DNA from: a virus
IMG/VR virus record: IMGVR_UViG_3300028025_004246
Coordinates: 1 to 21,205 of that record
Length of the DNA: 21,205 nt
Strand: one strand, 5' to 3'
Shown here: piece after piece, positions 3,860 to 20,097 of the stretch
How the letters are laid out: the number at the start of each line of letters is the position of its first letter
Position numbering within the stretch: the stretch's first letter is position 1
Program-made: the position numbers and the translations under genes
Notes under the pieces: model-generated
Seen by the model: only the letters and a program-made list of their open reading frames with translations
Told to the model about the DNA's origin: nothing
Databases searched by the model: none

Positions 3860-4254
3860 TGACATTAGATCAAATAGTTGTAGTAGTTCTATCAATCATA
3901 ATGGTTGTGTCTACTACATTCTCATTCGTATTAGTTAAGAAGATCAAACAGCTAGAGACAGAAGCTTGGCAGGCTGAGTTGGACAAGGGAGAGCTAATGA
4001 AGCAGCTTTACGAACAGTTTCAAAAGAACTCTGTTCCAAACCCAAATGATTCATTCATCAAGTTCTTGACAGACTCAAGGGACTCAGCATTTGAGTATAT
4101 CCAGAAAGCACAAGAGACTGTGGTTGAGTTCCTTGCAGTAGCAGATAAGATGCCACTAGCAAAGAGTGCAACTAAGGAGCAGTCACAGAAGTACAGGGAG
4201 TGTTACGACAAGCTGATTGATCTGTTGCCAGTGAATACTATCGAGAACGATTAA
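3859..4254 (+). CDS. Membrane-anchored coiled-coil protein
   Basis: A 131-residue protein with one N-terminal membrane helix (residues 4-26, IVVVVLSIIMVVSTTFSFVLV). A short basic boundary (KKIKQ) and a charged coiled-coil-like stretch (about 28-55) follow. The remainder is helical and soluble. I cannot assign a function. The ATG is coupled to the previous stop by TAATG. It is the last gene of the plus-strand operon and overlaps the convergent glycosyltransferase gene by 17 nt at their 3' ends. No terminator is evident between them. Confidence 0.68.
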   Translation: MTLDQIVVVVLSIIMVVSTTFSFVLVKKIKQLETEAWQAELDKGELMKQLYEQFQKNSVPNPNDSFIKFLTDSRDSAFEYIQKAQETVVEFLAVADKMPLAKSATKEQSQKYRECYDKLIDLLPVNTIEND

Positions 4255-5281
4255 ATACAACTTCATATTTTTTACTGAGAACATCTGGAGAGAAGTTCTC
4301 GTAGCCAATTTGGTAAGCTCTTTCTTTTTGTTGGAGCTTACCATTGCTATTTATATAGTCATCTATTGTTCCAGCAAGCTGTTTTATGTTTGCCTGGAAC
4401 ATCGGGACACGAGTCTTTGTTTTGATATATCCATAGTCGTGAGAAGGAACTAGCCATTCCTCTGGAAGGACTTTGTTGTTTGGAGATATGTCTGTCATAA
4501 ATACTGGGAGACCACTGAGCAATGCTTCGTTCATTGGGAGACAGAGACCAGCGTATCTTCTAGGCAAGATCATGGCATCATAGCCAGAATACATGTCTTG
4601 ACGCTCTTCTATATTGTCAGTAATGATTGTTAATCTACTATCTTGTTGATTAATTTTTAGGGGTACTTGTGTATGCACCACTAACTCATAATCAGCCTTA
4701 GAGTGCCTCAGCATCTCTATTACGTCCATAGTTCCGTTACGATCTTTGGCAGCAGGCTTTCCAGCTATGTGTAAAATCCTTTTGTGATCTTTGGATAGGT
4801 TAAACTCTTTAGCCTTATCGAATAATTCTGGTGTAGTTGGCGGCGGTAGATGGTAAATAGCATTAACCAAGTGACCAACTTTCTGATTCATCTTATCGAA
4901 GTACCAAGAACTTGGAGACAGTAATACATCTGGTAATGCAATAGTTCTATCAGACAAGTAGCCAAACAATTCATAGTTATACTGAAGATATGTCTTAACA
5001 TTCATAGCTCTTGCTATCCGTGGCAAGTTATTGTTATAAAATGTCTCACAACTTATGACAGCATCTAGATCCTGAAGAAATTCTTTTGCCTGTTCATCAG
5101 TAAATATTCCATCAACCCTGTATGTGTTATATTCGTCATAGATAGATGGGTCCTGTTTAATAGGGTTGTGACTTGAAAAATCAATAACCATAACTTTGCT
5201 AGGGTTTAGCATCTTTACAAGTTCTCTTGTCTGATTACCAAGACCAGTATTGTCGCACCTAGCTATGATACCTATTCTCAT
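4238..5281 (-). CDS. Glycosyltransferase, GT-B fold (GT4-like)
   Basis: A 347-residue protein. The N terminus MRIGIIARCDNTGLGNQTREL is a typical GT-B first strand with a Gly-rich turn. The C-terminal donor domain carries LHIAGKPAAKDRNG, YELVVHTQVP and MILPRRYAGLCLPMNEALLS, the last resembling the E-x7-E-type donor site of GT4 enzymes (PSxxEGxxLPxxEA). It should transfer a sugar from a nucleotide sugar to an unknown acceptor. It is last in a four-gene glycosyltransferase operon and overlaps the upstream gene by ATGA. A membrane segment or signal peptide is absent, so it is cytoplasmic. Confidence 0.85.
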   Translation of the reverse strand: MRIGIIARCDNTGLGNQTRELVKMLNPSKVMVIDFSSHNPIKQDPSIYDEYNTYRVDGIFTDEQAKEFLQDLDAVISCETFYNNNLPRIARAMNVKTYLQYNYELFGYLSDRTIALPDVLLSPSSWYFDKMNQKVGHLVNAIYHLPPPTTPELFDKAKEFNLSKDHKRILHIAGKPAAKDRNGTMDVIEMLRHSKADYELVVHTQVPLKINQQDSRLTIITDNIEERQDMYSGYDAMILPRRYAGLCLPMNEALLSGLPVFMTDISPNNKVLPEEWLVPSHDYGYIKTKTRVPMFQANIKQLAGTIDDYINSNGKLQQKERAYQIGYENFSPDVLSKKYEVVFNRSR

Positions 5282-6036
5282 GCTTCAGTAAGTCCCCAGG
5301 CTTCGTCATCACTTGTAAACTTTCGAAGACCCTTTCTTCCATCTAAGTTGTTAACTATCCTAATATCTTTTCCTGGTGGATTGTATAACCAAAGTCTGTG
5401 CTCGCTCCATCTTTCCAAAGTCTCATGGCAATCTGCAAATATCTTTCCATAAAACTTATCTTCAATGAATAGATTGGGGGTAGTGTTTGGGAGAACTACA
5501 TTTCTGTAATAGTCTACACGAGATATGTGTGGCTGCTGGCTCCACTGAAAGCTTCTAACATAGTTTCCTTTTTGCTCAAGCATTAGGTGTTTGTGAGCCT
5601 CTTCTATTTTATAATGATACGAATAGAATCGAACGGTATATGCTTTATCATTATTGAACATGTTAACGACCTCTTGCCAGTCTACATCTAGATCATCCTG
5701 GAGTGCGATGTCTCCTTCATTATAAAGCATTAGTGGTGTTTTGATAAGATCAATAGTCTTCGACATCATATTAGACTGATGCTCGTGACTTTCAAAGACT
5801 ATAGGAAGAACATTCTTCCATTCATGCAAACATTTCCATAGCACACGACTTTTGTATTCGTCGTACTGATCTTTACGATGTGATTGCTCTTCTCTGAGAC
5901 CATCTATTTGTAATATGATTTCGTTGTTTGGAAAGTATTTTCTAACACCAGATATCACGGCATCAATAATTTCAGTACTAGGATGTATAGGACTAACAGA
6001 TGTTGGGATAACTATTGTTACGTCTTCAATCTTCAT
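5278..6036 (-). CDS. Glycosyltransferase, GT-A-like (putative)
   Basis: A 252-residue protein. It begins VTIVIPTSVSPIHPSTEII, a GT2/GT-A style first strand. IILQIDGLREEQ follows, then PLMLYNEGDIALQDDLDVDW, where EGD occupies the place of the DxD metal and nucleotide-sugar motif. The C-terminal part has aromatic residues and a WSEHRLWLYNPPG segment. The acceptor and sugar are unknown. Its start overlaps the upstream gene by 11 nt and its stop overlaps the downstream gene (ATGA). Confidence in the fold is moderate because the DxD motif is atypical. Confidence 0.7.
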   Translation of the reverse strand: MKIEDVTIVIPTSVSPIHPSTEIIDAVISGVRKYFPNNEIILQIDGLREEQSHRKDQYDEYKSRVLWKCLHEWKNVLPIVFESHEHQSNMMSKTIDLIKTPLMLYNEGDIALQDDLDVDWQEVVNMFNNDKAYTVRFYSYHYKIEEAHKHLMLEQKGNYVRSFQWSQQPHISRVDYYRNVVLPNTTPNLFIEDKFYGKIFADCHETLERWSEHRLWLYNPPGKDIRIVNNLDGRKGLRKFTSDDEAWGLTEA

Positions 6037-6877
6037 TTATCTGCTCCATAATTTTGTTTGCAAAGTCTCTCTTGTACTTGATCCACCAGGAAACAATTTG
6101 ATGAAGATTCGTTGGGTAGTTTGCCAAAGTTTTTCTCATTATTTTCGGGAGCATCTTCCAATTGTCTGTTTTTACAATATCGTTTTCTCCAAACACAAAG
6201 GTCCAGAAATCAAAAGACTCATCAGATGAACTTTTTGTATCACCAATAGGTATAGCCATCATCTCTATTGCTTCAAAGAATCTAAATGAATCAATGGATG
6301 CTACACCAGCAGGGCAAGGAACAATCTTAGACTGAGACAAAAGTCTATAATACTCTTCTGGTCCATAGCCCTGGGTAAATCCTTCTGTAGGATTGAATAA
6401 AGAATTTTTAAGATTAGGCATAATTTCTGCAAGTTCTTTTCTTCTGCTATGAGTTATCTGACCAGAAAAGAATGAGTCGTATATTTTTTCAGGGTATTCT
6501 GGAACAAAGTCAACAATCCTACTAGGGGATCCAACAGGCATTTTATAATAGTTGCTGTGCTTTTCATACGGATACTGAACCCATATCTTTATGTCAGGAT
6601 GAACAATCTTTTCTACGTCAAACACTCCAAGCTCGTCTGAAGTTATAAACAAAACAACCTTCTCAATATTGTTTAAGTTTTTGTTTAACTCTTCTTCTGC
6701 CCCTGTCCACTCAAATCCAGGTGCAACTACAAAAGCTTTTTTTACTTTAGGGAGAGACTTAACTTGTTTTACCAACACATTGTTTCTGTCAAAGGCTTCT
6801 TTGATAAAGCCAAAATCCCATTTATCGTCAGCAAATCCATGTTCTCCATGCGATATTGAGTATGCCTTGTACTTCAT
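6026..6877 (-). CDS. Exostosin/GT47-like glycosyltransferase
   Basis: A 283-residue protein. The middle and C-terminal parts carry the exostosin-type signature: FFSGQITHSRRKELAEIM, then EEYYRLLSQSKIVPCPAGVA, then SFRFFEAIEMMAIPI. These match the S-K-x-x-x-C-P-x-G...RxxEAIxxGxIPV donor-site pattern of GT47 proteins. The N-terminal half is less conserved. It should act on a nucleotide sugar in the cytoplasm; acceptor unknown. It overlaps the first operon gene by ATGA. Confidence 0.77.
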   Translation of the reverse strand: MKYKAYSISHGEHGFADDKWDFGFIKEAFDRNNVLVKQVKSLPKVKKAFVVAPGFEWTGAEEELNKNLNNIEKVVLFITSDELGVFDVEKIVHPDIKIWVQYPYEKHSNYYKMPVGSPSRIVDFVPEYPEKIYDSFFSGQITHSRRKELAEIMPNLKNSLFNPTEGFTQGYGPEEYYRLLSQSKIVPCPAGVASIDSFRFFEAIEMMAIPIGDTKSSSDESFDFWTFVFGENDIVKTDNWKMLPKIMRKTLANYPTNLHQIVSWWIKYKRDFANKIMEQINED

Positions 6878-7827
6878 AGGCTAAGCTCCTTAATAATCTT
6901 TTCCCATCTATTGGTGTATGTGTGATTAGACTTTGTTCTTTTGAACCCAGCCATACGAATGCTCTCACGTTCAGACTCATTCTCAAGATAGTAATCAATC
7001 TTAGTCTTAAGCTCTTGGAGATTGCCATGCTCATAAAAAACAATCTCTTCTTTATTGTTAAAATACTCGGTTAGCCCAAAAATATTGGGGTAGATTGTGA
7101 AGCCACCTCTCCCAGTAGACTCAAATAATCTGTCTGAAGAATAGTATGGATACGTAAAGTTAATATTAAGAGTGTCTCCAATTGCAATTTTACTACGAGC
7201 ATACATTCGATTCAGATCGTCACCTCTTACAACACCTGTGTCTCCATCTCCACCAACATGTAGGAATCTATCTCCATAAGTATTACGCAAGAAGTCTATT
7301 AACTGAGGACGGTATGGATACTCTGGATGATATCTCCTACTACCAACAAAAATAACATCGTAATCAAAAGTGCCATCGTAATCTGGATGGATATACGACT
7401 CGGGAGCAAACACAGCAGCAGGAAGGAAGTGTCCATTGACCTCTGTATTTTCATTAAACCAGTTAGCCATTAGTTTATCTGTAGCAAAGAAGTGACCAAT
7501 GTTTTTATAGAATGGATCATTTTCAAGATCGTCCTGACGCTTAAGACCAAACCATAGGTCTAAATGATATGTCATTGTTGGTATGCCAAGAGCTTTTAGT
7601 TTTTTTAGCACTTCTTCCATCCCCATTCTTCCAGGGGTATGCCATCCATGAGTATGTACCCAAACGAACAGGTCACAGTTAGAAGCTACTCTATATATTT
7701 TTTCTGAGCCAGCTTCAGTTTCTTGTAATCTGTGGACATCATGTCCCATAGACTCTAGCGTTTCTGTATGATGTGTTTCTGTGGAATAGTTAACTCTAAA
7801 GTTTCCCAGGAAGGCAATTCTTGCCAT
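6874..7827 (-). CDS. CgeB-like glycosyltransferase, first gene of operon
   Basis: A 317-residue GT-B type protein resembling the CgeB/Glyco_trans_1_2 group. The N terminus MARIAFLGNFRVNYSTETHH is the first Rossmann strand. A linker DYDVIFVGSRR opens the C-terminal domain, where DRLFESTGRGGFTIYP is the donor-site loop and a TYTNRWEKI helix ends the protein. Its ribosome binding site is GGAG, 5 nt from the ATG. A minus-strand extended -10 at 7852-7860 lies just upstream, so this gene starts the four-gene unit. Confidence 0.8.
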   Translation of the reverse strand: MARIAFLGNFRVNYSTETHHTETLESMGHDVHRLQETEAGSEKIYRVASNCDLFVWVHTHGWHTPGRMGMEEVLKKLKALGIPTMTYHLDLWFGLKRQDDLENDPFYKNIGHFFATDKLMANWFNENTEVNGHFLPAAVFAPESYIHPDYDGTFDYDVIFVGSRRYHPEYPYRPQLIDFLRNTYGDRFLHVGGDGDTGVVRGDDLNRMYARSKIAIGDTLNINFTYPYYSSDRLFESTGRGGFTIYPNIFGLTEYFNNKEEIVFYEHGNLQELKTKIDYYLENESERESIRMAGFKRTKSNHTYTNRWEKIIKELSL

Positions 7828-11392: not shown

Positions 11393-11412
11393 CTTAAGTG
11401 AATGGGAATAAA

Positions 11413-12297
11413 ATGATCTGGTATCTCACAAAAAACAATAAGAACGACTATGAACTTAATCGTATTTTTGAAGAAGCAGCAATTCGTGATTTAGAAATAA
11501 AACATGTAGAGGTTGACAACTTTGATCTTATTGTTACAAGAAATGATAGAAGAAGTATCATACTAAACAATGAAACAGTAAAGCTTCCTTCTGTTGTTAT
11601 TCCAAGAACTGGTAGTGGGACAAGCTACTATGCAATGAGTGTTCTCAGACACTTAGAAAGAATGCATGTTCCAGTTTTAAATACAAGTGATAGCATTGAT
11701 GCTGCACAGGATAAAATGTATTCAACTCAAATTTTGGCACAGCATAACATTCCAGTGCCCAAAACAATGTTAGTTAGATTTCCAGTTGATGCTTCATTGG
11801 TAGAAAAACAAATTGGATTTCCCTGTGTTATAAAAATTTTAAGTGGAAGCTATGGCAATGGCGTTCACCTAGTTCAAGATGCTAAGTCGCTCAAAGAGTT
11901 AATGGAATTTGTTAGTAGCCTTAACTCTCCCCTAAATATTTTGATCCAAGAATATGTTAGCGAACACCCAGGAACAGATGTTAGAGTTTTGGTAATTGGG
12001 GGAAAAATAGTTGGAGCAATGAAGAGGTCAAGTACTGATGGAGACTTCAGGGCAAACATTTCTCGTGGAGGAACTGGATCTGTTTTTGAAATAGATGAAG
12101 AGCTTTCATATCTATCTTTAAATGCTGCAAAAGTTTTAAACTTAGAGATTGCTGGGGTAGATGTTTTAATTGACAAAGACGGATACAAAGTTTGTGAAGT
12201 AAACTCTGCACCAGGCTTTGAAGGATTTGAAAAATTTTGCGACAAGAATGTTGCAAAAGAATTTATACAGTATGCAACGTTTAGACAAACTACATAA
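11413..12297 (+). CDS. RimK-like ATP-grasp ligase
   Basis: A 294-residue ATP-grasp enzyme of the RimK type. Visible elements are SIDAAQDKMYSTQILAQHNIP (preATP region), PCVIK (Lys141), the glycine-rich loop SGSYGNGV (144-151), QEY (179-181), TDVRVLVIGGKIVGAMKR, the RANISRGG loop (213-220), GVDVLI and the metal site CEVNSAPGFEGFE (Glu262, Asn264). Family members join an amino acid, often glutamate, to a peptide or small-molecule carboxylate through an acyl phosphate. The acceptor is unknown. I chose ATG 11413 with GGGAA upstream; a GTG at 11398 is possible. Confidence 0.85.
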   Translation: MIWYLTKNNKNDYELNRIFEEAAIRDLEIKHVEVDNFDLIVTRNDRRSIILNNETVKLPSVVIPRTGSGTSYYAMSVLRHLERMHVPVLNTSDSIDAAQDKMYSTQILAQHNIPVPKTMLVRFPVDASLVEKQIGFPCVIKILSGSYGNGVHLVQDAKSLKELMEFVSSLNSPLNILIQEYVSEHPGTDVRVLVIGGKIVGAMKRSSTDGDFRANISRGGTGSVFEIDEELSYLSLNAAKVLNLEIAGVDVLIDKDGYKVCEVNSAPGFEGFEKFCDKNVAKEFIQYATFRQTT

Positions 12298-12795: not shown

Positions 12796-13485
12796 ACACT
12801 CACAGCTAGATGGTTCAGAAAACATCTCACCAAGTATTATGTCTTTTAAAAATTCAAAATTGTAATCACTGCCAGAGATGTACGGCTCCTTCGTAATGTC
12901 TATTAGATTCTTAGCTCTGTCCTCAAGCACATCCTTGCTATGAACCTTTACATCGCTATGTTTAGTTCCACCAATACTGTAACGGTTGCCATAGTGTGAT
13001 CTCCACAATGCGGTGGAATGCAGAATAGGAAGTAGTTTTTCCTTGTTCATAATCATTGGTGTGTGTAGTTCATAGTCAAGAGGATCCGCAATACCAGTTC
13101 TTCTAATAACATTGTTACTAAGTATAAGCAGTCTTAGGTAGCCAGCGTTCTGAGACTTTATTTGTTGTAGCGATCTAATTCTATCAACAAGTGTACCTGT
13201 GTACCATGTTGGTATTTCTTTGACAGGATTGATTACAAAAAAGTCATCGTTCATCAAAACAAAGTCATCACTAATTTTTTCTGTGGCACATGCGACTCTA
13301 AGTTGTTCACGAACATTTGCGTATGACTTTTTAGTTTGTTCAACATGCACAAAGTTTCCAGTGTACCAATCTGGTTTGCCACCGATGACCCAGATGTTTC
13401 CTTCTGGCATATTTTTTTCAATAGATCTTATTGAGTATCTAAGTTCTTCATTGTCACCATCACGACAAACGTAAACGTAGTCCAT
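12790..13485 (-). CDS. Stealth-like sugar-phosphate/glycosyltransferase (putative)
   Basis: A 231-residue protein. The N terminus YVYVCRDGDNEELRYSIRSIEKNMPEGN and the segment SDDFVLMNDDFFVINPV resemble the CR1/CR2 region of Stealth proteins, where R...DN...L.YSLRSIEK and NDDxF are the core of a hexose-1-phosphate or glycosyl transferase. The acidic NDD is a metal/nucleotide-sugar site. At 231 residues it is shorter than full Stealth proteins and may lack CR3-CR4. It ends CEC and overlaps the first HNH gene by 6 nt. AGGAAAG, 4 nt before the ATG, is the ribosome binding site. Confidence 0.7.
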   Translation of the reverse strand: MDYVYVCRDGDNEELRYSIRSIEKNMPEGNIWVIGGKPDWYTGNFVHVEQTKKSYANVREQLRVACATEKISDDFVLMNDDFFVINPVKEIPTWYTGTLVDRIRSLQQIKSQNAGYLRLLILSNNVIRRTGIADPLDYELHTPMIMNKEKLLPILHSTALWRSHYGNRYSIGGTKHSDVKVHSKDVLEDRAKNLIDITKEPYISGSDYNFEFLKDIILGEMFSEPSSCECL

Positions 13486-14813: not shown

Positions 14814-15058
14814 CTTTCGCTGACCAGTACAAAGCTCACGCATACGCTGACCTAATCCGTGAGGCTGAAACGCAGGGCATTGAAACTGGAGTGCGACAAG
14901 AGCAAGAACGCATTATTGCACTACTAGAAAAACTAAGTTGTGACTGTGACGAAGACTGTGACATTGTGGAGATTCCATTTCACAACTTAAAAGATCTTAT
15001 TGCATACAAAGAAGACAAACCAAAGCATCCTTTTGAATATGAGGGATGGAACGATTGA
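14810..15058 (+). CDS. EQERIIxLL-motif acidic protein
   Basis: An 82-residue protein. The N-terminal helix YKAHAYADLIREAETQGIE leads into GVRQEQERIIALLEKL, a segment shared with the protein at 14394-14588. A Cys/Asp cluster follows (CDCDEDCD), which might hold a metal ion, then a short C-terminal part. No known function. The start overlaps the previous stop (ATGA), and AGGAAGG precedes it. Confidence 0.66.
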   Translation: MTFADQYKAHAYADLIREAETQGIETGVRQEQERIIALLEKLSCDCDEDCDIVEIPFHNLKDLIAYKEDKPKHPFEYEGWND

Positions 15059-15070
15059 TAAGGAGAAGTA

Positions 15071-15289
15071 ATGACAATTAAGAAAGAGTACATCGTATTC
15101 TCAGCAGAAGGATACAACTATCATAAAACATTTAGGGATACTAAGGCAACTCGTTATGTAGCTCTTAATGTTCGTGACAACGAGAATCGTGTTTATCTTG
15201 AGCTTACTATTGATGAAGCAAAGCAAGTAATTCAAGAGATCAAAGATGCTATCAAGGAATCAAAGAAGAAGGGTAACACTCCGTTCTAA
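15071..15289 (+). CDS. Hypothetical protein
   Basis: A 72-residue protein with a beta-rich N-terminal half (KEYIVFSAEGYNYHK, ATRYVALNVRDNENRVYLEL) and a C-terminal amphipathic helix (DEAKQVIQEIKDAIKESKKK). No family recognised. A strong AAGGAG ribosome binding site precedes the ATG, so expression is probably good. Confidence 0.7.
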   Translation: MTIKKEYIVFSAEGYNYHKTFRDTKATRYVALNVRDNENRVYLELTIDEAKQVIQEIKDAIKESKKKGNTPF

Positions 15290-15304
15290 ATTTGGGGGTA
15301 CATA

Positions 15305-15817
15305 ATGATTGAAGTAACAGTATCAAAAGAACGTGTAGAGGAAACACTACAGTTCGTAAAGGCTATGCGTGAAGCAAAAGAAAAGCATAGCGTAGAAGAT
15401 AAGATGTTTGACCGTAACAATACATCCTATGGTATTAACATCATTGGACATCTAGGTGAGCAGGCTATTGGACAGGCATTAGGCTATCCAGTTGATACCA
15501 CAGTATTGGTTGGTGGAGACAATGGATCTGATATGGTCGTAGATGAAATGACTATCCAGGTAAAGACCAGTCAGCTCAAAAGTCTCATCTTCAACCAGCT
15601 ATGGCAGTTCAAGTCTGACATTGCTATCCTTGTGCAGTATGTTGGAGAAGACAAAACAAAGTCAGAGGAAGATCCACGATTTATTATTCTAGGCTATGTT
15701 GATAAGGCAACCTTCAAGGAAAAGCACTATCGTAAGGACTATGGCTATGGAGAACGATACGTAATGGATGCTCAGGACTTGATTCCTATTGAGTCTCTCC
15801 AATTTGCGAGGGTATAA
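15305..15817 (+). CDS. PD-(D/E)XK nuclease-like protein
   Basis: A 170-residue protein. The core GHLGEQAIGQALG (Glu52 in the first helix), GGDNGSDMVVDE (Asp76) and MTIQVKTSQ (Gln85-x-Lys87) fits the E...D...(D/E/Q)xK arrangement of restriction-like nucleases. The strand AILVQYV follows. Possible roles are DNA processing, recombination or host DNA breakdown; sequence does not distinguish them. GGGGG lies 6 nt before the ATG. It is the last gene of its unit, followed by a terminator. Confidence 0.72.
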   Translation: MIEVTVSKERVEETLQFVKAMREAKEKHSVEDKMFDRNNTSYGINIIGHLGEQAIGQALGYPVDTTVLVGGDNGSDMVVDEMTIQVKTSQLKSLIFNQLWQFKSDIAILVQYVGEDKTKSEEDPRFIILGYVDKATFKEKHYRKDYGYGERYVMDAQDLIPIESLQFARV

Positions 15818-15850
15818 AGTAAAAACCGTATCATTCCTATATATACAATT

Positions 15851-15886
15851 AACCCTAGTAAAGAAACATGCTAGGGTTTCTTGTTT
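15851..15886 (+). terminator. Intrinsic terminator after the nuclease-like gene
   Basis: AACCCTAG (15851-15858) pairs perfectly with CTAGGGTT (15871-15878), followed by TCTTGTTT. It ends the plus-strand unit that stops at 15817. Confidence 0.75.
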
Positions 15887-16003
15887 GCCTGATATCCCCA
15901 TAGCCCCATAAACCCATAGCAGATCCTTCCATACCCCCACAATTTCCTATATATAGTGGTTCGTAATCCTTTTTGACACTAAATATAGATAACAAATAGG
16001 GAG

Positions 16004-16035
16004 TTATCCACAGGTTTATCCACATGTTATCCACA
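16004..16035 (+). promoter_or_regulatory. Three tandem DnaA boxes
   Basis: TTATCCACA occurs exactly three times, at 16004-16012, 16016-16024 and 16027-16035, in the same orientation with 12- and 11-nt spacing, close to one helical turn. This is the perfect consensus DnaA box. It suggests host DnaA binding and possible initiation, with AT-rich DNA to the right as an unwinding element. Confidence 0.75.
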
Positions 16036-16476
16036 TACATCTTACTGATTATTTTATTATCTGACTGTAATAGAGTGTTTGGATATTTGTTTGAGTAATT
16101 GTGACCCCATATCTAGGGCGTTCGTAATGCCAAACCACTACATCTAGTATCCCCCAAACCTCCAAACAAGGATATCAAACCATATATTCTTCTCTCCAAA
16201 CCCCAAATTGGGCTATCTGGCTATCCAAAATACGATCAAATAGTGTTTGTATATATAGGGAAAATGATGTATTTTGTTTATATATATAGGGATATTTGTT
16301 AATTTTCAGGGATAATTTGGTATTTTCGTAATACCCTGCGGACCCCCACAAATCGGGGGTATGCAAACAGTTATTTCTTGAACCAATTATTAATATATAC
16401 ATATATAGCCAATATCCCCATAAGAGATACAATAACTAATATATCTAAAATAGTTCCAAGCATATTTTTCACTCCT

Positions 16477-16566
16477 TCGTAATAACTTTCAGGCGTATTT
16501 TTCAATCGGATCGTAATGTCTTTCAGGCGTATTTTTTAAAGGGATCGTAATGGTGTTTATATAGGG
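16477..16566 (+). repeat. 34-bp tandem repeat array with TCGTAAT heads
   Basis: Two full units (16477-16510 and 16511-16544) share TCGTAAT, then TTTCAGGCGTATTTTT. A third head at 16545 passes into TGTTTATATAGGG. Heads are exactly 34 bp apart. A degenerate earlier unit (GCATATTTTTCACTCC) precedes the array. It resembles iterons or arrayed operator sites. Confidence 0.72.
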
Positions 16567-16585
16567 TTTGGTGTTTGGTCTGCCC

Positions 16586-16624
16586 CTGGGCGCCCCCAGC
16601 TACCCCCCAAACAAGGGGAGTAGC
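16586..16624 (-). terminator. GC-rich hairpin pair after the 16636-18777 minus-strand unit
   Basis: Read on the minus strand, GCTAC-TCCCC/GGGG-GTAGC (16599-16624) is followed by CTGGG/CCCAG around a 4-nt loop (16586-16599) containing GGCGCC. It lies 11 nt past the last stop of the minus-strand unit. There is no clear U tract, so the terminator call is tentative. Confidence 0.5.
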
Positions 16625-16635
16625 CAAGGAGAATG

Positions 16636-16890
16636 CTACATCTCTGCAATTTCGCCTAGGTCAGCAAACCCTGTATCTTCCTCGTGGTCAAAAGATTCCA
16701 GCACACCTTTCCAGCAAGCAGTAACCATAGCCATAGCAACAGGTTCGAGTTTGGCAATACTCTGATTGTGAGCAAATGCCATTGGGAAGCCCATATCAAA
16801 ATACTCGAACAGGGGAATGACTGATTCCTCGTCACGGTAGTTGAGCCATAGGTCTGACAGAATCTCGCATTGTGTATCAAATGGTGTCAT
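16636..16890 (-). CDS. Conserved small phage protein (ILSDLWLNYRD type)
   Basis: An 84-residue acidic helical protein. The pattern ILSDLWLNYRDEE, then EYFDMGFPMAFAHN and a C-terminal GFADLGE, recalls a small-protein family frequent in early regions of actinobacteriophages, with unknown function. It is the last gene of the minus-strand unit; terminator-like hairpins follow. Confidence 0.72.
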   Translation of the reverse strand: MTPFDTQCEILSDLWLNYRDEESVIPLFEYFDMGFPMAFAHNQSIAKLEPVAMAMVTACWKGVLESFDHEEDTGFADLGEIAEM

Positions 16891-16900
16891 TGTATTTTCC

Positions 16901-17107
16901 TTAGTATCTAATTACTTCTATGCCTTGTTCTTCTTTTATGTGTTCCGTCGCTTCGATAAGAGCGATAGCACGATTGAGAGTTAGCGTTCCAATCATATCT
17001 GCCATATAGACGGCTACCATATCTATATCTAATCTTAGGTCTGATAGCAAGTCAGACATCTTCCTCGCTACCTGTAATTCTCGTGTATGGTTTTGGTACT
17101 TTTTCAT
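16901..17107 (-). CDS. Small hypothetical protein
   Basis: A 68-residue helical protein (KYQNHTRELQVARKMSDLLS, MVAVYMADMIGTLTLNRAI). No family recognised. A TTGACA promoter (17140-17145) ends close to the ATG, and GAGGG is 3 nt before it. It may therefore be transcribed separately, on a very short leader. Confidence 0.65.
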   Translation of the reverse strand: MKKYQNHTRELQVARKMSDLLSDLRLDIDMVAVYMADMIGTLTLNRAIALIEATEHIKEEQGIEVIRY

Positions 17108-17115
17108 AGTCCCTC

Positions 17116-17145
17116 AGTTTATCATAGTTGGTGGCTAGTTGTCAA
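17116..17145 (-). promoter_or_regulatory. Internal minus-strand promoter
   Basis: TTGACA (17145-17140) with an 18-nt spacer to TAAACT (17121-17116), 8 nt before the ATG at 17107. The -10 resembles the one at 9159. Confidence 0.5.
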
Positions 17146-17522
17146 TAGGAGTTATCCACAGGCTTCATCTCATATGGAGGAAGGTTGTTAAGATAGTCAA
17201 CGATACGCTGTGGCACATTCTTGTACACATGTAGGATTGAATAACTATCTAACCAGAAATCTTCATCGGGAGCATAGTCGCCTCCATCTTCTTCACTAAG
17301 ACCAAGAGTCATCTGGTCAGCTTCTTCCTGCGTGATGTAGATGTCTAGCTCTTCTCGCTCCTCGCCTGTGCCATAGCCTGCATAGTCGTGAATAATTTCA
17401 TTAAAGCTAAACCTCCATTGCGAATTTTCTTTTGTAGCCTCTACGCCATGGTCAAGGTTATGCCATCCTTCGTTCCAGATGTTTACGTCATATACGTTAT
17501 CTAATTCAATTCTCATAGTCAT
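17142..17522 (-). CDS. Hypothetical acidic protein
   Basis: A 126-residue acidic protein (YGTGEEREELDIYITQEEAD, LSEEDGGDYAPDEDFW). No family recognised. Its start overlaps the end of the 17506-17889 gene; ATG 17516 in the same frame is an alternative. A copy of TTATCCACA, as in the DnaA array, lies inside its last codons (17152-17160). Confidence 0.66.
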   Translation of the reverse strand: MTMRIELDNVYDVNIWNEGWHNLDHGVEATKENSQWRFSFNEIIHDYAGYGTGEEREELDIYITQEEADQMTLGLSEEDGGDYAPDEDFWLDSYSILHVYKNVPQRIVDYLNNLPPYEMKPVDNSY

Positions 17523-17889
17523 CTTTATCTACCTCGCATTCGCTACAAATAGTTACAGTTACTCCAGTGTACCGTTGGTGATTCACCCAGATGTGTTCGT
17601 CCATATCGCACAGTGTCATCTGATACAAATCAACCTGAAGAATCATCTCAGGGTCAAACGGCACGGTACAGATGTAATAGTTGAGACGATTAACATAACT
17701 AAATCCATTACTGATTACACTGTAGTCACCACCATCTGTCCAAGTCCAGATACGGTCTGGGTCTTGCTTACAGACAATCTCTAGGTCTTCGCCATAGGTC
17801 TCATAGGCAATAGGGTTGCCTTCGAAATCACAGATTGGTTTATACTTGTCTATCCATTCCTCATAGGTGAGGTCAATTACTGTTTCCAT
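17506..17889 (-). CDS. Conserved phage hypothetical protein (VIDLTYEEW type)
   Basis: A 127-residue protein beginning METVIDLTYEEWIDKYKPI, with FETYG-like AYETYGEDLEIV, RIWTWTDGGD and FSYVNRLNYYICTVPF. This arrangement recalls proteins found across actinobacteriophages and some plasmids; function unknown. The C terminus has CSECE, a possible metal ligand pair. AAGG lies about 8 nt before the ATG. Confidence 0.7.
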   Translation of the reverse strand: METVIDLTYEEWIDKYKPICDFEGNPIAYETYGEDLEIVCKQDPDRIWTWTDGGDYSVISNGFSYVNRLNYYICTVPFDPEMILQVDLYQMTLCDMDEHIWVNHQRYTGVTVTICSECEVDKDDYEN

Positions 17890-17917
17890 ATTACAACCTT
17901 AGCAGTAGGGTACGACA

Positions 17918-18151
17918 TTAGGAATATAGGGCGATGTATTCGTCAATGAGGTCTGGTTGGAATCCACTCCACCATAGGGTCCCTGCATTAACGACAGGAG
18001 CAGACTTGAATCCCTCGGCTAAAAGTTGATCGAGTGCTTCTTCATCCTCGGTAATATCGACGGTAGTGTAGGCTACACCTTTATCATCAAAGTACTTCTT
18101 AGTTGCATTACACTGTACACAGTTAGGTTTGGTATAAATAGTAGGAGTCAT
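17918..18151 (-). CDS. nrdH: NrdH-type glutaredoxin-like protein
   Basis: A 77-residue thioredoxin-fold protein. The redox site is C11-V-Q-C14 in YTKPNCVQCNATKKYF. The cis-Pro is in KSAPVV, and WWSGFQPDLID is the NrdH-type C-terminal signature. NrdH donates electrons to class Ib ribonucleotide reductase and is reduced by thioredoxin reductase. No reductase gene is visible in this window, so it may serve a phage NrdEF elsewhere or the host enzyme. Confidence 0.88.
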   Translation of the reverse strand: MTPTIYTKPNCVQCNATKKYFDDKGVAYTTVDITEDEEALDQLLAEGFKSAPVVNAGTLWWSGFQPDLIDEYIALYS

Positions 18152-18154
18152 ACT

Positions 18155-18400
18155 CTAGTTTACCACGGTCCGATACTGCTTGTTTACAAAGTAATCCTGA
18201 GAATACATAGTCTTCATCTCATGGTCATGCACACAACGCTGGTAGTTCTGAAAGGCTAGCTCACCATAGAAAAACTTAGGTCTCTGTCCCTCTAGTACTA
18301 CCTTGTAGTAATCGTTCTCTGTATCTGATTCGAACACTTCTGCAACCTGGGAATGATAGATACGCCTCCATACCTGGTCACCTGCTTTAGGCTTGCTCAC
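18155..18400 (-). CDS. Hypothetical protein, possible small beta-barrel
   Basis: An 81-residue protein. KPKAGDQVWRRIYHSQVAEVFE followed by YYKVVLEGQRPKFFYGELAF looks like a five-strand SH3/KOW-like barrel, but no family is proven. The start is GTG with AGAGG 6 nt upstream, overlapping the previous gene by 14 nt. Confidence 0.66.
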   Translation of the reverse strand: MSKPKAGDQVWRRIYHSQVAEVFESDTENDYYKVVLEGQRPKFFYGELAFQNYQRCVHDHEMKTMYSQDYFVNKQYRTVVN

Positions 18401-18509
18401 TTGATTCCTCTCCAGTACAAATAATAATCTCGTTATTCTTATCTACAAACACATGCATATTGGGAAAGGCATTGCCTACCAGTCGTTCTACTTCTTCTAC
18501 AGTCATCAT
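18387..18509 (-). CDS. Small hypothetical protein (40 aa)
   Basis: The frame reads MMTVEEVERLVGNAFPNMHV, then FVDKNNEIIICTGEESS. This is a helix plus beta hairpin, similar in style to small phage regulators, with no family assigned. The ATG overlaps the stop of the preceding gene (ATGA), and its 3' end overlaps the next start. Coupling is the main support, since it is below usual ORF cutoffs. Confidence 0.58.
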   Translation of the reverse strand: MMTVEEVERLVGNAFPNMHVFVDKNNEIIICTGEESSEQA

Positions 18510-18685
18510 GCTTCGTCCTCCTCGTCTTCATCGCCTTCTTCGTATACAAGTTCAGCGTCTACAATTTCGACGGAATCGTACTGAAGATTCTCCATATAGT
18601 ATCCAAGCTCTTCTGCTTCAGCAAGAGTCTCTGCCTCTACAGTACCTGAAAACCGTACAAGGGTTTCTACATAGTATTGGTTCAC
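18506..18685 (-). CDS. Small acidic protein (59 aa)
   Basis: The frame reads MNQYYVETLVRFSGTVEAET, then LAEAEELGYYMENLQYDSVE, with a C-terminal run of Glu and Asp. The N-terminal Y-V-E...V..SG.VEA.TLAEAEELG pattern matches a type of small phage protein with a strand-helix-strand fold. No function known. The start is GTG, overlapping the upstream stop; the end overlaps the downstream gene. Confidence 0.66.
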   Translation of the reverse strand: MNQYYVETLVRFSGTVEAETLAEAEELGYYMENLQYDSVEIVDAELVYEEGDEDEEDEA

Positions 18686-18777
18686 ATTATCTCCTTTAGT
18701 TGTTCATCGGTCAGGCTATCAATTGTAGCAAGACCCTCCGACAGTACCTTGGCTAGTGCCTTTTCTAATTCGTTCAT
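18682..18777 (-). CDS. 31-residue leader protein of the minus-strand operon
   Basis: The frame reads MNELEKALAKVLSEGLATID, then SLTDEQLKEIM. It is a helical acidic peptide. A -10-like CATACT with upstream TGT lies 6 nt before the ATG, suggesting a leaderless start, and its end overlaps the next gene by 4 nt. It is the first gene of the unit running to 16636. Confidence 0.55.
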   Translation of the reverse strand: MNELEKALAKVLSEGLATIDSLTDEQLKEIM

Positions 18778-18783
18778 ATGTAT

Positions 18784-18792
18784 AGTATGACA
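18784..18792 (-). promoter_or_regulatory. Promoter of the 16.6-18.8 kb minus-strand operon
   Basis: Reads TGTCATACT on the minus strand, with 6 nt (ATACAT) to the ATG at 18777. TTGGTA about 18 nt upstream may be the -35. The same CTGTCATACT string is found before the DUF932 gene at 20008-20017, pointing to a shared regulon. Confidence 0.5.
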
Positions 18793-18837
18793 GGTGTAGG
18801 CTACAAATACCAACTTTTCAGGGTGATTGTTACCGTT

Positions 18838-18890
18838 TCGTAATCTGGCGTATATTTTTAACTATCGTAATAGAAAAATAATGTTTATAT
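18838..18890 (+). repeat. Second TCGTAAT repeat element
   Basis: TCGTAAT at 18838 is followed by CTGGCGTATATTTTTAACTA and a second TCGTAAT at 18865, then TGTTTATATA. The order of parts matches the 34-bp array at 16477 (head, GGCGTAT, T run, head, TGTTTATATA), with a shorter 27-bp period. Confidence 0.68.
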
Positions 18891-18907
18891 ATCTATACAA
18901 AAGGATC

Positions 18908-18936
18908 GGCGCCCCCACCACCTCCCCGAAGGGAGG
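18908..18936 (-). terminator. Terminator-like hairpin after the DUF932 gene
   Basis: Read on the minus strand, CCTCCC-TTCG-GGGAGG (18936-18921) is a 6-bp stem with a stable UUCG tetraloop, followed by a GGCGCC-containing stretch and CCTTTT. It begins 15 nt past the DUF932 stop. Confidence 0.66.
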
Positions 18937-18950
18937 CAGTGAGTGACCGA

Positions 18951-19973
18951 CTAGGAAGCCATTGTCATATTCTGAACAATGCGAAGAATGCGATTCTTCT
19001 CTGCGTTCATAGCAGGGTCAAAGCCAGAAGCCGAAGCCAACACAGACTCGTTGTTACCCTTGCGACCAGAGCGATACCAGTCGAGGCGTTCCGTGATACC
19101 GTTTAGAACACCCCACGCTGTACCAGAAATCGTGTCGTTGAACTGTCCGTTGTAGATATCCTCAATGAGTTCCAATTTGGTAGACCACTTGGACATAGCA
19201 CCCTTAGCGTCTTTCTCAGGCATAGGGTAGACCTCACGCAGGATAGCCTGGAATTGGTCATTAGTGACTTCAGTCTCAATCATAGCCTGAGCCATCTTGT
19301 CAAACTCATCCATGTACTCGTTAGCAAGACCGAGAGCGATACGAGCCTCATTGACACGACCCTCAGCAGTCTGAGTGTGACGAATCTTGAACGACTGCTT
19401 GGCACTACGCCATTGCCCTACACCGCTACCGATAGCCATGTTGAGAGTGTTAGCACATACAACACGGACAGGCGTGATGCTAGCCATGATGGACACAGAC
19501 CCATCGTGAGAGGTATTGACGAGCAGGTAAGTGTTTACCTTGTCACCGATACCCTTGGGGTCAAGCACAGTCTCACGCTCAAGAGCAAGAGCACCGAACA
19601 CAACACGACCACCCTTGATAGAGCCAGCCGTCTCCCAACGACCACCACCGTCTAGCAGGTTGTCACCAAAGGTAAACAAGTCCTCATTCTGAAGCGTGTT
19701 GTAACGCTCACCCACGATACCGAGAATGTCGTTCTGCTCAGAGTTGAATGGGTTAGTGCGAGCAACAAAGTAGTTAGTCTTGTCAGATACAAAACCATCG
19801 GGAATAGGAATCTCCTCAAGACGGACATTCCAATTATCAAGATGTGCCAACTTCAGCATATCTGATGTCTTTACTTCTTCCTCGAACACAGTACCAAGAC
19901 CATGCCAAGCAGGTTCACGGAATGATGCGAAAGCAACTTCTCCGTTTTGTCCTTTTTCTAATTCGTGTGCCAT
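18951..19973 (-). CDS. DUF932 / TIGR03299 phage-plasmid protein
   Basis: A 340-residue soluble protein of the DUF932 family, normal in length. Recognisable blocks are EPAWHGLGTVFEE (about 20-32), LGIVGERYNTLQNEDLF, TYLLVNTSHDGSVS, PVRVVCANTLNMAIG and FNDTISGTAWGVLNGITE. Family members occur widely in phages and plasmids and are linked by context to DNA metabolism, but their biochemical role is not established. AAAGG lies 6 nt before the ATG. It is a single-gene unit with its own promoter and terminator. Base composition is visibly richer in GC than the left half of the window. Confidence 0.9.
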   Translation of the reverse strand: MAHELEKGQNGEVAFASFREPAWHGLGTVFEEEVKTSDMLKLAHLDNWNVRLEEIPIPDGFVSDKTNYFVARTNPFNSEQNDILGIVGERYNTLQNEDLFTFGDNLLDGGGRWETAGSIKGGRVVFGALALERETVLDPKGIGDKVNTYLLVNTSHDGSVSIMASITPVRVVCANTLNMAIGSGVGQWRSAKQSFKIRHTQTAEGRVNEARIALGLANEYMDEFDKMAQAMIETEVTNDQFQAILREVYPMPEKDAKGAMSKWSTKLELIEDIYNGQFNDTISGTAWGVLNGITERLDWYRSGRKGNNESVLASASGFDPAMNAEKNRILRIVQNMTMAS

Positions 19974-20007
19974 GTGTAACCTTTCGTTAGCGGTGTTTAC
20001 TTATATA

Positions 20008-20036
20008 AGTATGACAGATACCACCGACAATTACAA
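20008..20036 (-). promoter_or_regulatory. Promoter of the DUF932 gene
   Basis: On the minus strand the -35 is TTGTAA (20036-20031), the spacer is 17 nt, and the -10 is CATACT (20013-20008) preceded by TGT. The leader of about 28 nt includes the AAAGG ribosome binding site. A TCGTAAT copy lies 24 bp upstream of the -35. Confidence 0.58.
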
Positions 20037-20059
20037 GTCTTGGGGGACATTTTTAAGTC

Positions 20060-20097
20060 TTCGTAATTAGATTGTTACATTAGCAGATCGGGGCGCC
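20060..20097. repeat. Third TCGTAAT site with GGCGCC element
   Basis: TTCGTAAT (20060-20067) and GATCGGGGCGCC (20086-20097) recur here in the same order and orientation as at 18838-18913 and 16545-16594, although only one head copy is present. Confidence 0.55.

Follow-up and report, generated by a model that had tools for sequence, protein, structure and literature searches.

The window analysed here is a complete viral contig of 21,205 bp (IMG/VR record IMGVR_UViG_3300028025_004246), which encodes ThyX, a deoxynucleoside monophosphate (dNMP) kinase, WhiB, a glycosyltransferase and a DUF932 protein (phrog_1221; 18951-19973, minus strand). Its intergenic DNA contains a family of uniformly oriented repeats of the heptamer TCGTAAT, the subject of this analysis. 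These repeats lie in three stretches (1,218 bp, 38.8% GC), namely an 818-bp non-coding gap between convergent genes (15818-16635) and the gaps downstream and upstream of the DUF932 gene, and begin at positions 15961, 16122, 16326, 16477, 16511, 16545, 18838, 18865 and 20061. All nine are on the plus strand and none on the minus strand, exactly as listed in an initial annotation made from the sequence alone. The annotation also considered this number to exceed chance, which dinucleotide shuffles of the intergenic stretches bear out (mean of 0.08 and maximum of 2 copies in 2,000 shuffles), and reported six of the nine copies as TTCGTAAT, which is correct. Its description of the motif as confined to intergenic DNA fails for the bare heptamer, because six further copies lie inside open reading frames (ORFs; 2002, 2750, 7358, 7376, 11178 and 12891, all on the plus strand), and nearly holds for the longer site of which the heptamer is part.

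Read in the opposite direction, each intergenic copy (ATTACGA) forms the core of an asymmetric site of ~31 bp, WTTACGAW-N6-A-tract-n-CCnGRA, which was derived by aligning 83 intergenic copies from the window and its relatives. In this direction, TTACGA occupies columns 1-6, A or T column 7, an A-rich tract columns ~14-20, CC columns 22-24 and a purine-rich A block columns ~26-28. A scan of the window with a 36-column matrix assigns scores of 14.5-28.8 to the nine intergenic copies, and the sole genic match, at 12891, is weak (11.0). In the ATTACGA direction the copies lie past gene ends and near GGCGCC hairpins, as had been noticed initially; the well-formed promoters ~50 bp downstream of the copies in the gaps at 18.8 and 20.1 kb had been overlooked. 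Overall, the initial observation is partly confirmed.

The convergent gap, the equivalent of which in phages of the BE cluster is the end region of a direct terminal repeat, harbours six of the sites, all on the minus strand. Site 1 (15937-15967, heptamer at 15961, score 14.5) adjoins three perfect DnaA boxes TTATCCACA on the plus strand (16004-16035; starts at 16004, 16016 and 16027) and is kept in the related contigs G003, G012, G005 and G002. Site 2 (16098-16128, heptamer at 16122) scores 20.2, and site 3 (16302-16332, heptamer at 16326, score 27.6) follows a tiny ORF and a CCCCC/GGGGG hairpin. Site 4 (16453-16483, heptamer at 16477), with the highest score of 28.8, overlaps the AAGGAG ribosome-binding site of this ORF, site 5 (16487-16517, heptamer at 16511, score 23.0) is 34 bp from each of its neighbours and site 6 (16521-16551, heptamer at 16545, score 23.0) lies beyond the end of the leftward operon. 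The spacing between neighbouring copies in the window is irregular (27, 34, 34, 151, 161 and 204 bp). Across this terminal gap in six relatives, 53% of the core positions are identical in all, compared with 31% of the remainder. The tiny ORF within the array (16371-16463, minus strand) encodes a hydrophobic peptide of 30 amino acids that is conserved in relatives; it has a good ribosome-binding site, and homologues of 26-30 amino acids occupy the same place in six relatives. The gap also contains three copies of a TTTATATATAGGG-like sequence (16246-16293 and 16554-16566, plus strand), and CCTATATATA/TATATAGGG recurs in the end regions of BE phages as well.

The remaining three sites are also on the minus strand, flank the DUF932 gene on both sides and are linked to promoters. 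Upstream of DUF932, the site at 20037-20067 (heptamer at 20061, score 27.2) abuts a promoter at 20008-20036, which consists of a -35 element TTGTAA (20036-20031), a 17-bp spacer and an extended -10 element TGTCATACT (20016-20008), with the site core 50 bp upstream of TGTCATACT. Downstream of DUF932, the site at 18814-18844 (heptamer at 18838, score 23.3) precedes the promoter of a small gene (18784-18813; -35 element TTGGTA at 18813-18808, 18-bp spacer, extended -10 element TGTCATACT at 18792-18784), and a second site (18841-18871, heptamer at 18865, score 19.9) lies 27 bp further upstream. Both minus-strand promoters are conserved in relatives. In the window clade, operon junctions near DUF932 share one layout, in which the stop codon is followed by a GGCGCC-type hairpin, the site, a -35 element TTGnnn, 17-18 bp, TGTCATACT and the next gene. 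The distance from the start of TTACGAW to TGTCATACT is mostly 50-52 bp and otherwise 61 or 72 bp, corresponding to steps of 11 bp. Furthermore, 19 of the 27 distinct promoter-linked copies carry a second half-site RTWACRAW offset by exactly 11 bp (-11 in 11 copies, +11 in eight), giving the tandem layout GTAACAAT-N3-GTTACGAT; the background frequency in the gaps concerned is 0.0013 per position. Within the 50-bp class, an RTAACAAT-like sequence is located exactly 11 bp upstream in most copies and 11 bp downstream in others. Both promoter gaps of the window carry such a second half-site, which yields ATTACGAA-acg-GTAACAAT at 18826-18844 (51 bp upstream of TGTCATACT) and GTAACAAT-cta-ATTACGAA at 20060-20078. 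The spacer between TTGnnn and TGTCATACT in window-clade early promoters often contains TGTCGGTGG (e.g. 20017-20030 in the window), a possible second operator.

Thirteen related contigs were found via the DUF932 protein, and 11 whole records of 16 to 112 kb were read. Relatives with 70-94% DUF932 protein identity have the copies in corresponding gaps and with unchanged orientation; absence from related intergenic regions, which the initial annotation named as grounds for abandoning its proposal, is thereby countered. Matrix scans of the relatives identified more copies further up the same early operon, with ten co-directional, nearly all intergenic sites across 9 kb in G007. Where present, the terminase and polymerase III alpha of these relatives share 52-54%, the portal protein ~45% and DnaB ~39% identity with those of Streptomyces phage Bmoc, which relates the window lineage to the family Stanwilliamsviridae. 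The group is common, as at least ~600 stretches of the viral collection encode a match to a protein of one relative. A search of the phage collection by direct DNA match to the window yielded none, and the host search through genome contigs gave a single, unrelated match (Undibacterium).

The same site is present in the cultured phages Bmoc, MindFlayer, Coruscant, Comrade and others, either within the terminal repeat or next to a long non-coding gap, and often near DnaA boxes. In the BE cluster, a direct terminal repeat of ~11 kb contains the DUF932 operon, whose transcription runs toward the end of the genome (PMC5764925). The site takes the form TTTACGAW-N6-AAAATT-CCnGGA in ten BE phages, each of which has three to five copies within the leftmost, non-coding ~800 bp, without exception on the minus strand; Coruscant shows the same layout. 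Bmoc has four strong distinct sites and a weaker fifth upstream of its first leftward promoter, with no other convincing site in 133 kb. The BK phages TunaTartare, Comrade and Emma1919 contain ~7-11 copies each, again all on the minus strand; several are intergenic and directly precede start codons and tRNA-Gln, and one cluster is close to DnaA boxes. As the BK genes near the sites are on the plus strand, these sites run against transcription. Because the TTACGA strand is opposite to the late and replication genes in the window clade, BE and BK alike, site orientation follows the genome axis and not local transcription. The satellite phages MiniFlayer and MulchRoom lack a site array. The site family is a real, conserved and regulatory feature that the window clade has in common with two subfamilies of cultured Streptomyces phages, and its arrangement supports asymmetric binding sites in a directional array. 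Half of the ten BE phages (MindFlayer, StarPlatinum, MulchMansion, TomSawyer and Starbow; records L059, L060, L061, L074 and L076) have CTTACGAW exactly 27 nt from the left genome end; Bmoc, Samisti12, Jay2Jay, Genie2 and Bartholomune lack this placement, and a role as packaging or terminus cut site was rejected.

Direct half-sites at an 11-bp pitch adjoining the -35 element are typical of OmpR/PhoB-type regulators, and the promoter-linked copies are well supported as boxes for a regulator of this type. Among known members, MtrA, an envelope and cell-cycle regulator, is the best candidate, with GlnR as the next choice. The MtrA box of Corynebacterium glutamicum, (A/G)TAACAAT-ttn-(A/G)TAACAAT, activates when located upstream of -35 (PMC3353115). 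The promoter-linked copies share with it the 8-3-8 direct-repeat layout, the 11-bp pitch, half-sites of the TAACAAT/TTACGAW kind and the placement upstream of -35 seen in activation; the consensus is from Corynebacterium. Half-sites of Streptomyces venezuelae MtrA include TTGCGAA, TGTCGAA, TGCCGAA and TTACGGT, with T1 and C4 invariant (PMC13189361), and TTACGAW/TTACGAA possesses both, so that the terminal, BE and BK copies also fit a single half-site of this kind. The OmpR-type DNA-binding domain (Trans_reg_C) was not detected in ten phage records, in searches with positive controls, which makes a host protein the more likely binder and host MtrA the most likely one at the early promoters. The initial annotation regarded the regulator as not identifiable, a verdict that the tandem layout and the half-site sequence of the promoter-linked copies improve upon, the binder being a prediction.

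We therefore propose, with chances that we consider evenly balanced, that the sites serve as boxes for an OmpR/PhoB-type response regulator of the host, probably MtrA, which would activate the early promoters, and that the same protein may load the terminal half-sites. TCGTAAT would be the reverse complement of a strong half-site, (A/G/T)TTACGA(A/T), bound head-to-tail at an 11-bp pitch as by other winged-helix response regulators of this type. At the early promoters (18826-18844 and 20060-20078), two half-sites immediately upstream of -35 would form the full box, RTWACRAW-N3-RTWACRAW, where the protein, most likely MtrA of the host, would act as an activator in contact with RNA polymerase. 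At the non-coding end of the early operon, the same protein, probably also the binder of the terminal array, would load several single strong half-sites, each with an in-phase A-tract and CCnGRA. Enrichment of A is seen at positions -5, 6, 17 and 28 in the terminal set and at 6, 17 and 28 in BK sites, a pattern that would accommodate three or four tandem subunits; the BE sites show a broader enrichment, and the test for a period gives no sharp result. The sites themselves, with their orientation, spacing, conservation, coupling to promoters and half-site match, are established by the comparison, whereas the identity of the protein, activation and the role of the array are inferred.

Several observations weigh against this proposal. 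The terminal, BE and BK copies lack the second half-site of the MtrA box at the 11-bp pitch and have only A-tracts in phase: an RTAACAAT half-site accompanies 5 of 62 promoterless copies in the window clade, those in the convergent gap included, and none of 42 BE copies. The conserved CCnGRA block is absent from every published MtrA box, and TTACGAW shows stricter conservation than is usual for MtrA boxes. Since the promoter-linked copies are homologues and paralogues of one another, the 19 of 27 do not represent 19 independent events, and in the distant relatives G010 and G008 the core is ~14 bp further from the promoter and out of helical phase. The end regions of Coruscant that were examined contain no exact DnaA box, which also counts against an origin built on iterons. 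Finally, the GlnR box, GTnAC-n6-GTnAC, has a similar pitch (PMC3087709). The phage sites also differ from MtrA boxes in being phage-borne.

Alternatively, a phage initiator could bind the sites as origin iterons, with the terminal array as replication origin and solitary copies allowing this initiator to regulate genes as well, an explanation that we regard as unlikely though not negligible. As in plasmid and phage origins, directly oriented repeats occur with DnaA boxes nearby: same-strand clusters occupy the main non-coding gap together with DnaA boxes in three lineages, the two conserved blocks of the site are about two helical turns apart and the sites are oriented by the genome axis, not by transcription. 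The candidate initiator is a MerR-like helix-turn-helix (HTH) protein (phrog_9440) whose gene stands right before that of the DnaB-like helicase in all three lineages (L065:38999-39520, L063:44837-45376 and L019:17271-17816), and which could also be a promoter regulator; matches to the MerR_1 domain in relatives are sub-threshold only. The initial annotation had mentioned iterons, and the non-coding location and the DnaA boxes in most genomes partly support that suggestion. However, regular, helically phased spacing is lacking (27-204 bp in the window), solitary copies are situated at promoters and start codons and the outgroup phage Weasels2, which has a homologue of the HTH protein, lacks sites in both of the end regions that were read. 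Neither GC skew nor third-position skew gives an origin signal; both track transcription, and an origin is thereby neither supported nor excluded.

Improbable, by comparison, is another host OmpR-family regulator of the same pitch at the promoter boxes, above all GlnR. Although the S. venezuelae GlnR box is fitted by GTAACAATTAGGTTAC, the conserved A-rich 3' part of the phage half-site (RAW after GTWAC) belongs to the MtrA consensus sequences and is missing in GlnR half-sites.

The initial annotation likened the motif to stoperators of Cluster A mycobacteriophages such as L5 and TipsytheTRex, where a bound repressor halts elongating RNA polymerase in one direction, a likeness that the wider comparison goes against and that we deem decidedly improbable. 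The sites share asymmetry, single orientation and intergenic location with stoperators, and in the window clade and BE they follow terminator hairpins, are co-directional with the early operon and form tandem copies at the operon end. Stoperators, however, are 13-14 bp long, number 20-30 per genome, are oriented with transcription and occur in repressor-bearing phages (PMC6550527, PMC9283540). The phage site is ~31 bp long with a different sequence, and the sites are few and local, lying in the early or terminal region instead of being spread genome-wide. Agreement of orientation with transcription is restricted to the window clade and BE, as the BK sites oppose it, and BE-cluster phages are virulent with no known repressors (PMC10690885, PMC7650747). 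Moreover, stoperators would leave the phasing to promoters, seen for many sites in the window clade, and the 11-bp partner unexplained. The initial interpretation is, overall, partly supported. Least probable is that the sites are promoters read in the TCGTAAT direction by phage-specific transcription machinery: the site reads TYnGG, an AT-rich spacer and TCGTAAW, and several BK sites that stand alone immediately precede coding sequence starts and tRNA-Gln, but mostly antisense RNA would be expected in the window and BE phages, one BK start codon falls inside the would-be -10 and the T7-like RNA polymerase domain PF00940 is unmatched, which counts for little as the search control was silent.

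Returning to MtrA, the terminal array may act as a regulated origin or may form a barrier where the operon ends. The oriC of Mycobacterium tuberculosis carries four MtrA boxes between DnaA boxes (PMC4285127), and MtrA-type half-sites and DnaA boxes likewise share one non-coding region in the window, most relatives, Bmoc and three BK phages. With these DnaA boxes accompanying the array and oriC as a precedent, a replication origin is plausible here; in contrast to oriC, the phage sites are all on one strand and mostly single half-sites, and origin activity is putative. Perfect DnaA box pairs ~12 bp apart also occur in the early region ~10 kb from the array (G003 30527-32578, G008 14962-18864 and G001 52983-56113).

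The comparison suggests that common virulent phages may time their early genes, and perhaps replication, by the host control protein MtrA. A bolder version, which we put forward as speculation that is unlikely to hold in full, is that a virulent actinophage lineage copies actinobacterial oriC/MtrA control, with host MtrA both switching on the early operon and licensing a terminal-region origin made up of MtrA and DnaA boxes, so that the physiology of the host would gate infection. The literature searched, which excluded most subscription journals, yielded no description of phage promoters based on MtrA boxes. If correct, the model would explain how early genes are switched on in a common environmental phage group and in 130-kb Streptomyces phages, and the early switch would rest on a regulator that is hard for the cell to lose. 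A cultured test pair is at hand in Coruscant and Streptomyces venezuelae, for which mtrA deletions exist. The sites also constitute mapped cis-elements in a non-coding terminal region for which no assigned function was found in the literature. Elsewhere in the window, a reversed cassette contains glycosyltransferase-like genes (4238-7827, minus strand), and a RimK-like ATP-grasp gene (phrog_2599) is encoded at 11398-12297 on the plus strand.

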